DNA of 58,935 nucleotides from Onishia taeanensis (GTDB taxonomy: Bacteria; Pseudomonadota; Gammaproteobacteria; Pseudomonadales; Halomonadaceae), in NCBI RefSeq assembly GCF_013349955.1, contig NZ_JABVXC010000004.1, forward strand, positions 1 through 58,935. Reading direction: 5' to 3'. Below, piece by piece: positions 47,825 through 50,666 of this stretch. Numbering within the stretch: position 1 is the stretch's first letter; the number at the start of each line of letters is the position of its first letter. Both the position numbers and the translations under genes were made by a program. The notes beneath the pieces are model-generated. The model made no database searches. It was not told the origin of the DNA and saw nothing but the letters and a program-made list of their open reading frames with translations.

Positions 47825-48720
47825 TAGGGAACCACCAGGATCAGTAAACCGACAATAATGATATTAACCAGTGCCAGGGGGATGCCCATAATCCAGCACC
47901 ACCGCATCAGATCCGCCTCGCGAATGCGTGGCAGGTAGCGACCGACGAGCAGCATCGACACGGCTACGGCCAGGGTCTTGATCAGGCTCCAGGCCCAGGG
48001 CGGCAGCAGCGGGCCATGCCAGCCGCCGAGGTAAAACACCGTGGTCGCCGAAGCCAGAGTAACCACCAGCGTCAGTCGGGCCAGGCGCAGCACTGCCAGG
48101 CGCACCCCGGTGTACTCGGCGTCCACACCTCCGCCAAGCTCCCCTTCTGCGGTGGGCAGATCGAAGGGGGCACGGAACGCCAGCGCCATGGCGGCAATGA
48201 AAAACAGCACGAAGCCCAGAGGCTGGTAGACGATGTTCCACAAGCTGCTCTGGGAACCAACGATCGCGGTGTTCACCAGGGACTCTGCACGCATGGCCAC
48301 GGCCGTGATCGGCATGACAATAAGCATGGAATAGGCAATAAGCTGGCCCAGAAAACGCCAGCCGCCGATCATCGCGTAGGCGCCATCCGGCCCCCAGCCA
48401 GCCATGATCACCGCGACCAGCACATAGGCCAGGGCCGCGTTGATGAAGAGCGCGCCGGTGCCCAGGTCCGCGATGATCAGATCCGGCGCCAGCGGCAGGA
48501 CCGCCATGCCAAGCACTGCTACGACCAATAGCAGCACCGGCGCCGCCTCGAAAAAGACCCGGTCCGGCGAGCGCGGCACAATAGATTCACGTCCGAGGTG
48601 AGCCAGGCCGTTGAACAGCGGCGCCGCCGGACTCAGACGCCCAGTGGCCATCCAGCCCTCAATCACAGCCAGCAGCCAGGCGCTGCCAAGCAGCGCGAGC
48701 AAAACGATGGCGACAGTCAC
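47824..48720 (-). CDS. nuoH: NuoH-like subunit with degenerate quinone-channel motifs
   Basis: The 298-residue protein is somewhat shorter than usual NuoH. The C-terminal half is well conserved: FRAPFDLPTAEGELGGGVDAEYTG near residues 184-205, and LPRIREADLMRWCWIMGIPLALVN near 262-285. The N-terminal half is degenerate. The family RIGPNRVGP loop after helix 1 is not recognisable (GWMATGRLSPAAPLFNG here), and the conserved SYE glutamate is replaced in GQLIAYSMLIVM. The start is GTG, overlapping the stop of the B/D fusion gene (GTGA). The changes suggest that quinone access is not needed. Confidence 0.88.
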   Translation of the reverse strand: MTVAIVLLALLGSAWLLAVIEGWMATGRLSPAAPLFNGLAHLGRESIVPRSPDRVFFEAAPVLLLVVAVLGMAVLPLAPDLIIADLGTGALFINAALAYVLVAVIMAGWGPDGAYAMIGGWRFLGQLIAYSMLIVMPITAVAMRAESLVNTAIVGSQSSLWNIVYQPLGFVLFFIAAMALAFRAPFDLPTAEGELGGGVDAEYTGVRLAVLRLARLTLVVTLASATTVFYLGGWHGPLLPPWAWSLIKTLAVAVSMLLVGRYLPRIREADLMRWCWIMGIPLALVNIIIVGLLILVVP

Positions 48721-50666
48721 GAAGTCACCTCCCAGGGCGAAAGGTCCAGTGACCCGACTGCCAGCAGCGCATCGCCCAGTTCCTGGCCCTCGACAAGCTT
48801 CGGGACCAGGCCGATATGGTGACTGCAGGCGGTGTCCAGCTCGTATGACTTAACATGGCCGCGCTCCAGTTTCAGACTTAGCCGGGCCTCGCCGCGCGGA
48901 GTGTCAACGGTTGCCTCACCGGTTCCTGACACATCGCCAACGTCGCGCAGAACCGGCAGCTCCGGTTCTGCGCCCGACTTTATAAGGTCAAGGCTGGCCG
49001 AAATTTCGGCCAGGCGCTGCCACAGGCGCGCCCAGGCATCTCCGCCTTCGTTGGCAGCACTCGCTACGGGGCCGCGCAAACCAGAAGATTCCGTTGGCAG
49101 TATACCGACTCCCATCAGCCGCGATTTAAGCAAAGGCGTTCGTTCAAGGCGGGTACCCAATGTACGCAGCGCTGGCTCCAGGGCAGCAAGACTGTCCCGG
49201 TTAGCCTCTCTGACTTGCAGTTGCAGAGTTGAAGCCCGTTGCGTCAGCCAGGCGAAGCCGAGCTGGCGCCCTAACTGAGCCAGCCAGCCAAGATGACTGG
49301 CGATGCGCTCACGCTCAAGGGCGCCAGTGCGGGCACCGGCGTTTGCCGAATCGTCCTCCAGTCCTGCCGCTTGCTCTATTGCCAGACAAGCCAAAAGACG
49401 GTAGCTCACCGGCGCGAGCGGAATTGCAGCTGACAGATACGCAATGAAGGTCTCGGCATCCATCTCTTCACTTTCTTCAACATTGTCACCTTTGCTGGTC
49501 ACCCCCACCAGGGAGATCGCCTGCCCCTCCGTTACGCCGTCACCATCAAGGGTCAGCGTCAACTTCAGTCCGCCGGGCAAGCCAGGGAAGACCGGACCGA
49601 ACGGCACCTCAAGCCAGTCCATCTGCAGGCCGTCGGCGCTGCGCGGCAGGTCTTTGGTGACTTCAATCATGGACATGAATCCCGAGGAACCATGATCATG
49701 TCCTTCATGATCATGCCCACCGTGATCGTGTTCACCGTGATCGTGTTCACCGTGATCGTGTTCACCGTGATCATGGCCGGAATGTTCATGTTCTGAGTGG
49801 TCGTCAGATTCACGGACTACCAGATCCATGCCGCACTTCGGGCAGCTGCCCGGTTCGTCCCGAACAATTTCGGGGTGCATGGGGCAGGTATATTCGGTCC
49901 CAGCATTTTCGGGAGCGTGTTCCGGTTGGTGTTCGTTATTGTGGTCGTGGTCGTGGCCGTGGTCCTGATCATGGCCATCATGATGCTCATGATGCCCATG
50001 GTGGCTCTGGTGCTCATGGTGGCTCTGGTGCTCCTGGTCATGGCAATGCTCGTGTTCGTGGCCATGGTGTTCGTGATCTTCGTGATGTTCATGATCGCTG
50101 CCGCCTTCAGGGGTCGACTCCCCGGCTTCGCGGGCTACCAGGTCCATGCCACATTTGGGGCAGCTACCCGGCTCATCCTCCACAACTTCGGGATGCATGG
50201 GGCAGACATACTCGATCCTGGCGTGCATTACAGAGGCGTCGAAATCCTCCGGCGAGTCTGTAAAGGCACCGTCAGCCAATGCCCGCTTTAGCTGACCTAC
50301 GGCTTCGGTCAGATCTTCTTGCGAGAGGTCTGAGGAGATATCGTCACCCGATAAAGTCGACGGTGTCTGCCCGCCTACCATGAGAATCGCGCGCGGCCGG
50401 GGCATCTGCGCGTAGAGCACTGCCACGGCATCCCCCATTTTCCCGGGCAGATCTCCGACAATCAGAAGCACGCTGGCATCGCGTGGCGTGGTTGCAATGC
50501 GCAAGCCTGCTGCAGTCACGTCCAGACCATGCGCCAGGGCCACTTCCGGGCCCGGAACGATCAGACAGCTCAGGTTACGCGCCAGGGCCCGGGAAACCAG
50601 CTTCTGCAGCACTGAGTAACGTTTCTGCCGTGCGCCCGTTAGGTTTATTGCTGGATCAGAACTCAT
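48717..50666 (-). CDS. NuoB-like/NuoD-like fusion with two metal-binding modules and His-rich spacers
   Basis: Starting at the ATG that overlaps the nuoA stop (ATGA), the protein has 649 residues. Residues 1-100 resemble NuoB (LRIATTPRDASVLLIVGDLPGKMGDAVAVLYAQMPRPRAILMVGG) but lack all N2 cluster Cys and end where the cluster loop should be. A metal module CPMHPEVVEDEPGSCPKCGM follows at 153-178, then a His/Glu/Asp-rich stretch at 191-248. A second module lies at 259-285 and a second His-rich stretch of GEHDH repeats at 290-326. Residues 345-649 are NuoD-like: LKLTLTLDGDGV, ALERERIASHLGWLAQLGRQLGF near 449, and DTPRGEARLSLKLERG to ELGDALLAVGSLDLSPWE at the end. The quinone-loop His are lost (GPVFPGLPGG). 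It probably sits on the cytoplasmic side as the peripheral arm. Function unknown. Confidence 0.9.
   Translation of the reverse strand: MSSDPAINLTGARQKRYSVLQKLVSRALARNLSCLIVPGPEVALAHGLDVTAAGLRIATTPRDASVLLIVGDLPGKMGDAVAVLYAQMPRPRAILMVGGQTPSTLSGDDISSDLSQEDLTEAVGQLKRALADGAFTDSPEDFDASVMHARIEYVCPMHPEVVEDEPGSCPKCGMDLVAREAGESTPEGGSDHEHHEDHEHHGHEHEHCHDQEHQSHHEHQSHHGHHEHHDGHDQDHGHDHDHNNEHQPEHAPENAGTEYTCPMHPEIVRDEPGSCPKCGMDLVVRESDDHSEHEHSGHDHGEHDHGEHDHGEHDHGGHDHEGHDHGSSGFMSMIEVTKDLPRSADGLQMDWLEVPFGPVFPGLPGGLKLTLTLDGDGVTEGQAISLVGVTSKGDNVEESEEMDAETFIAYLSAAIPLAPVSYRLLACLAIEQAAGLEDDSANAGARTGALERERIASHLGWLAQLGRQLGFAWLTQRASTLQLQVREANRDSLAALEPALRTLGTRLERTPLLKSRLMGVGILPTESSGLRGPVASAANEGGDAWARLWQRLAEISASLDLIKSGAEPELPVLRDVGDVSGTGEATVDTPRGEARLSLKLERGHVKSYELDTACSHHIGLVPKLVEGQELGDALLAVGSLDLSPWEVTS
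49718..49775 (-). repeat. 15-bp tandem repeat coding for GEHDH/GGHDH units
   Basis: On the plus strand CACCGTGATCGTGTT repeats from 49718 with period 15: three perfect units and one partial. On the coding (minus) strand it specifies successive HDHGE units of the second His-rich stretch. Near-identical DNA units suggest recent expansion and possible length variation between strains. Confidence 0.9.

Follow-up and report, generated by a model that had tools for sequence, protein, structure and literature searches.

What does an operon with the membrane arm of respiratory complex I do when its NuoB-like and NuoD-like parts have been fused around metal-binding modules? This question is raised by a locus of Onishia taeanensis (Halomonadaceae, Gammaproteobacteria) in a stretch of 58,935 nucleotides (contig NZ_JABVXC010000004.1, positions 1 to 58,935; hereafter, the window), where a single 649-aa frame on the minus strand (48717..50666) stands among genes for complex I-type membrane subunits. 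We propose that these genes encode a proton-driven exporter of Cu(I) (or Ag(I)) that is built on the frame of complex I and has a methionine-lined path, a reading in which transport is deduced from sequence and to which we assign a probability of about 0.45. The fuller picture, in which a complex I would have lost its redox function, had its NuoB and NuoD fused around copper-collecting domains, acquired a methionine ladder in its central coupling helix, helix 3 of NuoJ, and spread between phyla on plasmids as copper-resistance cargo, is offered tentatively, at somewhat under even odds. That the complex is linked to metals and is not a quinone reductase we regard as very probable.

It has long been disputed how events at the quinone site of complex I act on proton channels far away. 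A natural relative with most NuoL and NuoM pump residues and the coupling acids of NuoA and NuoK in place, but without any known redox ligand and with its coupling helix rebuilt, would set coupling apart from redox chemistry and show which parts of complex I suffice for it. If the proposal is true, the system would be a new class of metal pump, derived from the largest respiratory proton pump, and would give bacteria an ion-gradient-driven route to copper resistance that descends from a respiratory complex. It would also supply a candidate function for hundreds of proteins named 'heavy metal-binding domain-containing protein' or 'Ni,Fe-hydrogenase III large subunit'.

Architecture of the fusion protein

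An earlier note on this DNA, made from the sequence alone, had described NuoB-like and NuoD-like ends joined through two metal modules and His-rich stretches. Profile searches, Foldseek and the finding of two copies of the heavy-metal-binding domain (HMBD; PF19335) bear this out, and the fusion can be divided as follows (pLDDT, predicted local distance difference test).

48717..50666, minus strand: whole fusion, 649 aa, in the order NuoB, HMBD, His-rich, HMBD, His-rich, NuoD (frame, profiles, predicted structure)
50223..50612, minus strand: NuoB-like domain without the four cluster-N2 cysteines (PDB profile matches, Foldseek, alignment A1)
50133..50210, minus strand: HMBD 1, CPMHPE...CPKCGM (PF19335)
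49905..50120, minus strand: His-rich linker 1, predicted disordered (sequence; pLDDT<50 at residues 192-263)
49818..49898, minus strand: HMBD 2 (PF19335, best stretch residues 268-292)
49683..49802, minus strand: His-rich linker 2 with HDHGEHDHG repeats, predicted disordered (sequence; pLDDT<50 at residues 298-353)
48720..49679, minus strand: NuoD/MbhL/HycE-like domain with quinone His and NiFe Cys replaced (alignments, fold search)

The two PF19335 copies score 91.3 bits against a curated cut-off of 23.6, and the Cys, His and Met positions of HMBD 1 are invariant in 32/32 aligned family proteins. Similarity was found in both ends. As a single sequence the NuoB end was too weak against Pfam (E=0.1), and a family profile was hence used, for which all 43 of 43 PDB matches were of the NuoB type, in agreement with Foldseek; when 11 family members were scanned singly at E<=1, all matched Oxidored_q6 (best E=2.2e-5). 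A global hhalign alignment of the N-domain with the single E. coli NuoB (probability 2.4%, E=0.0069) served only to locate cysteines. The closest PDB sequence to the NuoD end is MbhL (1.7e-23), and an FMSM segment at the start of this domain is invariant in 18/18 loci. A plus-strand reading of 48717..50666 was rejected for its many stops.

By motif pattern, at least one HMBD is present in 125 of 127 family proteins (one in 88, two in 29, three to eleven in 8). Four proteins (P0046, P0075, P0078 and P0081) have an expanded metal-binding segment of ten or eleven HMBD/His-rich units. The NuoD-like domain also holds a cysteine, C436 in 658-aa numbering, that is invariant in 32/32 aligned family proteins and matches no known NiFe ligand position; a Cys column found in 15/18 loci of the locus alignment is probably the same residue.

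Redox sites have been lost

Two features go beyond the earlier note, namely the loss of redox sites from the fusion and the abundance of methionine in NuoJ, NuoK and NuoA. With regard to the ligand positions of cluster N2 in NuoB, no Cys column of the NuoB-like domain is common to all 11 loci aligned; one column holds Cys in 7/11 and four others in 1/11, and the domain in the window has one Cys. The NuoD motif GPxHPxxHG has become GPxFxGLPxG, with F31 and P35 invariant in 18/18 loci, and both quinone-site histidines are thereby replaced. A quinone-site role is described for His38 of Nqo4 in the relevant part of PMC7434922. At the [NiFe] site, CGIC of MbhL aligns with PLAP, and Cys pairs were found at neither CxxC place, including the C-terminal one, in 18 loci.

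The genes around the system agree with the alignments. NuoE, NuoF and NuoG were absent from the surroundings of all 25 of 25 system loci, as opposed to their presence within 20 kb in 13 of 20 ordinary nuo stretches, and the only instance of NuoI (L088, 3-458) lies about 8 kb from nuoA. Since N2, quinone-site and [NiFe] residues are gone and no NuoE, NuoF or NuoG is nearby, electron transfer of the complex I or hydrogenase type is unlikely, and the sequences suggest no evident route for electrons in or onward to quinone. The host's own complex I was considered as the donor of a redox arm and rejected, as a search of its genome (99.94% complete) yielded nothing of the NuoB or NuoD families at E<=0.001, with controls detected in 11/14 and NQR outside the search. 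The PF00346 search of this genome missed the divergent fusion itself, so that its negative result excludes an ordinary NuoD only; two PF01512 matches were present in long open reading frames.

These losses bear on a published alternative. From co-localisation and co-expression in Marinobacter atlanticus, Eddie et al. (2021; PMC8233155, in the part dealing with this operon) proposed that copper redox energizes an ion pump; applied here, the metal modules would cycle copper between Cu(I) and Cu(II), and this would supply the energy that NADH provides in complex I. Met, His and Cys ligands may well suit copper redox chemistry, but the adapter has neither Fe-S ligands nor quinone-site histidines and no NuoE, NuoF or NuoG close by, and we consider this explanation improbable.

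The membrane arm retains most pump residues

The fusion lies within an operon in the order nuoA, fusion, nuoH, J, K, L, M and N, all on the minus strand in the window, and Pfam matches were obtained for all seven membrane-arm subunits.

50663..51025, minus strand: nuoA-like, 120 aa from the ATG at 51025, in an open reading frame that runs to 51118 (PF00507, E=2.2e-25)
47824..48720, minus strand: nuoH-like, 298 aa, no GPNR motif, N-terminal part reduced (PF00146, 1.9e-58)
47288..47824, minus strand: nuoJ-like (PF00499, 3.7e-19)
46980..47291, minus strand: nuoK-like (PF00420, 2e-18)
45160..46983, minus strand: nuoL-like, antiporter-like, with C-terminal extension (PF00361, 4.7e-60)
43675..45144, minus strand: nuoM-like (above the NCBIfam TIGR01972 cut-off)
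42311..43675, minus strand: nuoN-like, Glu of transmembrane helix 5 (E. coli E133) changed to Leu/Val (profile, alignment)

Residues were compared between 19 family loci and the E. coli subunits (L083) at positions that we take to be functionally important. In NuoL, all nine tested positions (E144, R175, D178, K229, H254, H334, H338, K342 and K399) are kept in 19/19 loci, as are seven of nine in NuoM (E144, K234, H241, K265, H322, H348 and E407) and four of seven in NuoN (K158, K217, K247 and K395; H224 is kept in 16). D79 and E81 of NuoA and E36 of NuoK are likewise kept in 19/19, and E72 of NuoK in 18/19, with one Asp. In NuoH, D213 and E228 are kept, E220 is Glu in 14 loci and Asp in 5, and E218 is Glu in 7. 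The antiporter core of NuoL and NuoM thus appears largely intact, and NCBIfam matches below cut-off relate the antiporter-like subunits to MrpA and MrpD. The C-terminal extension of NuoL is present, unlike in the M. atlanticus gene as described. The E133 glutamate of NuoN has been lost in 19/19 loci and its equivalents are kept by NuoL and NuoM; one of the three proton channels may therefore be changed.

NuoH has 298 aa compared to 325 aa in E. coli, and its GPNR motif is found in 0/19 family loci versus 10/16 ordinary sequences. The idea that the start of NuoH is simply deleted had to be softened, as alignments disagree (in one, E. coli E36 and R46 face gaps in 19/19, and in a second Glu21 faces a Glu of ordinary NuoH), and the absence of GPNR is the firm point.

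Retention of these subunits would also fit a metal-gated ion pump that moves no metal across the membrane. Copper in the cytosol would be sensed by the HMBDs and His-rich linkers, which would then turn antiport (H+ or Na+/H+) or a leak through NuoL, NuoM and NuoN on or off, so as to protect pH or membrane potential under metal stress. This main rival to export, which we judge somewhat unlikely, draws on the largely intact antiporter-like subunits and channel acids, on an HMBD number that ranges from one to eleven, as expected of a sensor or buffer and not of a stoichiometric site, and on the account, in part of PMC7434922, that ligand binding at the quinone site can move the E-channel without redox. 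It gives no account of the methionines fixed in NuoJ, NuoK and NuoA membrane helices.

Methionines in NuoJ, NuoK and NuoA

Met, Cys and His were scanned for columns that are fixed in the 19 family loci and rare in 12-19 ordinary sequences per subunit. In NuoJ, Met is the top residue, accounting for 13 of 65 family-specific columns, and makes up 10.8% of aligned positions in the family versus 4.0% in ordinary NuoJ. Three segments were delimited by alignment.

47591..47647, minus strand: methionine ladder of NuoJ helix 3, with M60, M61, M62, E65, M66, M69, M73 and M78 family-specific
47546..47569, minus strand: loop between NuoJ helices 3 and 4, with M86, M88 and H90, each in 19/19
50789..50809, minus strand: D-M-E-M-A-F-M of NuoA, with Met interleaved with the essential Asp/Glu

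Helix 3 and the loop of NuoJ read LQIMMMATEMSIMAIFMVMFMMDPGGLGGMDMSHQKR, a sequence that scarcely varies from Rubrobacter to Halomonas. M60, M61, M62, M66, M69, M73 and M78, as well as Glu65, which replaces a helix alanine, are each found in 19/19 loci and in 0/13 ordinary NuoJ; M75 and M77 are shared with ordinary NuoJ. The first six of these methionines are present in 119 or 120 of 120 NuoJ homologues listed, a set that is 69-99% identical to the query, overlaps the loci, includes the window's own cluster and is not an independent sample. Met62 stands at E. coli Tyr59. As described in part of PMC7434922, helix 3 of NuoJ (Nqo10) surpasses all other helices of the membrane domain in conservation, Tyr59 lies on its pi-bulge, and its cytoplasmic half rotates and acts on the glutamates of NuoK.

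In NuoK (46980..47291), M69, M72 and M76 have been gained around the essential Glu E75, and H55 and M63 are each found in 18/19 loci. The family motif of NuoA is D-M-E-M-A-[FY]-M versus D-[LVI]-E-x-x-[FY]-L in complex I. Overall, family-specific columns are Met in 22/148 cases in NuoA, NuoJ and NuoK versus 27/529 in NuoH, NuoL, NuoM and NuoN (Fisher p=2.1e-4). Copper transporters show what such residues can do: in Ctr1, Met triads in an MX3M helix form a filter that selects and conducts Cu+, and Met-to-Leu changes abolish transport (from the section of PMC6437178 on the filter), and in CopA one Met serves Cu+ entry, thioether ligands being suited to Cu(I) (from the corresponding part of PMC9433437). 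The methionine-rich NuoJ, NuoK and NuoA are, by sequence comparison, the strongest pointers to a putative movement of metal.

Copper genes near the system

Copper genes lie near the system in the window and at many other loci, both chromosomal and plasmid-borne.

36421..38892, plus strand: Cu-type P1B ATPase with two N-terminal HMBDs (TIGR01511, 589 bits, cut-off 397; PF19335)
58250..58909, minus strand: CopB copper-resistance protein (PF05275, 7.5e-73)

A multicopper oxidase follows directly past the right end of the window (L137). Copper marker genes were found in 15/25 system loci within the first stretch and in 17/25 once some flanks were extended, as compared to 0/20 ordinary nuo loci and 1/12 other stretches, the latter sharing a contig with a system locus. 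The 25 do not include the near-identical loci L025-L027 and L087, and flanks were unequal for system loci (10-60 kb) and 20 kb each for the 20 ordinary nuo loci. As markers were drawn from the window and six plasmid loci, those loci score partly by construction; copper genes are annotated independently in the records of the marker-source plasmids. With the window and all eight plasmid loci set aside, a marker remains in 6/16 first stretches and 8/16 after extension of some flanks. On a Rubrobacter tropicus plasmid, a heavy-metal P-type ATPase, a metal-sensitive regulator and a copper-binding protein are followed by nuoA and the fusion, and in R. marinus further genes, including pieces of a multicopper oxidase, lie in between.

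Across similar HMBD and His-rich segments, the Cu ATPase is 47% identical to residues 221-330 of the fusion, which suggests an exchange of modules between neighbours. Homologues of a 115-aa open reading frame upstream of nuoA (51565-51912; no NCBIfam match, and a sub-threshold PF02437 at E=0.008 as its sole Pfam match) are found repeatedly in the neighbourhood of the system or of copper ATPases (L029, L031, L086, L123 and L135). In other genera, relatives of a VTT-domain protein (52301-53044), an amino-acid-type permease (40297-41634) and an ICMT-like protein (35225-35899) are also situated around the system, and these three resemble shared copper-island cargo. At 41653-42112 lies a copy of a small protein family that has no Pfam match; this copy is spread over two overlapping frames and looks broken. 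The family has a longer paralogue at 31447-31983 and copies directly downstream of nuoN in L089, L090, L091 and L092. A scan for promoters and terminators gave counts similar to those in shuffled sequence.

Distribution and mobility

A search with the NuoD-like part returned 744 proteins, and PF19335 is present in 119 of the 120 listed. The operon is carried by Gamma- and Alphaproteobacteria and by plasmids of Rubrobacter (Actinomycetota), and the NuoD-like part was located on 12 plasmids (Sulfitobacter 4, Paracoccus 3, Rubrobacter 2, and Roseovarius, Thioclava and Nitratireductor). The system is uncommon among sampled genomes, with matches at E<=1e-15 in 8/390 of the window's order and strong matches in 5/398 of its phylum; the other 38 matches in the phylum were weak, and 20/20 of those weak-match genomes that were examined carry ordinary NuoB and NuoCD. 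Within the genus, four of seven genomes, including the host's own, have the system.

The neighbourhood survey that the earlier note had suggested showed all eight genes, in identical order, in 26 of 29 loci examined, some of them near-identical, and copper genes near 17/25. One locus (L034) begins inside the operon. A Marinobacter salarius copy (L033, 13409-14524) is truncated, with a short NuoL and neither M nor N in the stretch examined, a copy on a Xanthobacter Py2 plasmid (L040, 15028-15360) consists of nuoA and the NuoB-like part only, and in L095 (1884-4399) the fusion is divided between two overlapping frames; these three are decaying copies. In a tree of NuoH, NuoL, NuoM and NuoN (19 family loci, 14 ordinary complex I) the family forms one clade with a bootstrap of 100, inside which Rubrobacter, Alphaproteobacteria and Gammaproteobacteria are all nested. 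The mixture of phyla within the clade and the plasmids point to transfer between phyla, and a transposase-like open reading frame (53701-54555) and an integrase-like fragment (57153-57563), both recognized by eye, flank the region in the window, which fits a mobile island.

Proposed mechanism and points against it

In the export mechanism that we favour, metal from the cytosol would be gathered by the HMBDs and His-rich linkers and travel, by way of FMSM and the loop of NuoJ (M86, M88 and H90), to the ladder in NuoJ helix 3, continue via the methionines of NuoK and NuoA in the former E-channel and leave on the periplasmic side. Protons flowing back through NuoL and NuoM would run the coupling motion of complex I in reverse, with NuoN perhaps altered. 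The loop probably lies at the cytoplasmic end of helix 3, in line with the 'cytoplasmic half' named in part of PMC7434922. No redox partner was found in the cluster, which leaves an ion gradient as the one evident source of energy. The earlier note had held that metal binding is tied to ion translocation; a link is likely, and one of the two may drive the other.

Several observations weigh against export. The seven family-specific methionines of NuoJ 60-78 share no common helical face (R=0.23), and the subset 62/66/69/73 that does (R=0.93) was picked afterwards. Only 3 of 48 family-specific columns in NuoA are Met, and Met is rarer in NuoH, NuoL, NuoM and NuoN than in complex I. Of the tested pump residues, E108 and F137 of NuoM are not kept, with E108 lost in 19/19 loci, and the equivalents of E157, E216 and E241 of NuoH and, beside E133, H305 of NuoN are also lost in 19/19; proton coupling may hence be altered. 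A copper marker is missing from 8/25 loci, including L088 with 60 kb examined, five of them (L034, L091, L092, L094 and L095) being just 10-17 kb long. Finally, CopA-type ATPases already export Cu(I), and the need for a second pump is unexplained.

The identity of the metal (Cu or Ag) is inferred from context and ligand chemistry. HMBDs and His-rich stretches also bind Zn and Ni, and one relative among the 120 listed, P0121 (on one contig), is joined to PF10986, which we take to be the zinc-linked ZrgA, rather than to PF19335. A transporter of the same type might thus handle another soft or borderline metal (Zn, Ni, Co or Cd), or serve uptake and not efflux; many neighbours are, however, copper proteins (CopB, multicopper oxidase, cupredoxin and Cu-type ATPase), and thioether ligands suit Cu(I) (PMC9433437, in part), which makes this a slim prospect. 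Lost redox sites, the truncated copies L033 and L040 and the two-frame fusion of L095 could also be taken to indicate a decayed complex I that acts as a mere metal sponge without transport, yet the Met ladder and most pump residues show no variation from phylum to phylum, and decay would not keep them; we consider a sponge highly improbable.

Comparison with known systems

The earlier note knew of no described system with this architecture. This holds in part: the family is widespread and mobile, and its link to copper had been noted in M. atlanticus, where a nuoADHJKL cassette lies within copper-resistance genes and is reported to be co-regulated with them (Eddie et al. 2021; PMC8233155), the sole paper on this kind of operon among the top-ranked matches of the literature searched. 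That cassette, from a strain outside the loci compared here, is very likely a member of the present family. The part of PMC8233155 on this operon reports no nuoMN, HMBD, NuoB-NuoD fusion or methionine pattern, while the window has M and N, and it proposes copper redox as the energy source, whereas redox ligands are absent from the present family. No top-ranked match was found that describes the fusion, the missing redox sites or the NuoJ ladder, and the portions of PMC12361115, PMC13399641 and PMC11371751 retrieved describe no such operon.

With respiratory complex I (NDH-1), the system shares NuoA, NuoH, NuoJ, NuoK, NuoL, NuoM and NuoN, most pump residues and the NuoB-like and NuoD-like folds; unlike complex I, the operon in the window has no N2 Cys, quinone His or NuoE/F/G, has NuoB and NuoD fused around metal modules and has a Met ladder in NuoJ. 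Mrp antiporters share the antiporter-like subunits, and differ in that the window adds the NuoA/H/J/K coupling module and a NuoB/NuoD adapter; to our knowledge, they have no metal-binding adapter. The folds of Ctr1 and CopA are unrelated to complex I, CopA using ATP and Ctr1 being channel-like. Both nevertheless share with the present system Met sites in membrane helices, which there serve Cu(I) (parts of PMC6437178 and PMC9433437). The group 4 hydrogenases and the hydrogenase-related complexes without NiFe ligands (Ehr; PMC6349859, in part) are close in another respect, as MbhL is nearest to the NuoD end and NiFe ligands are missing as in Ehr, whereas the membrane arm in the window is of the complex I type (A, J, K, L, M and N), metal modules are present and Fe-S redox subunits were not seen. 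In Ehr, charge translocation is coupled to oxidoreduction in the cytoplasm; in the present family, no NuoE/F/G, N2 ligands or NiFe ligands were found. By descent, as judged from sequence, the family belongs to the superfamily of complex I, group 4 hydrogenases and Mrp antiporters, of which it would be a member that lacks the redox hallmarks of complex I and the hydrogenases.

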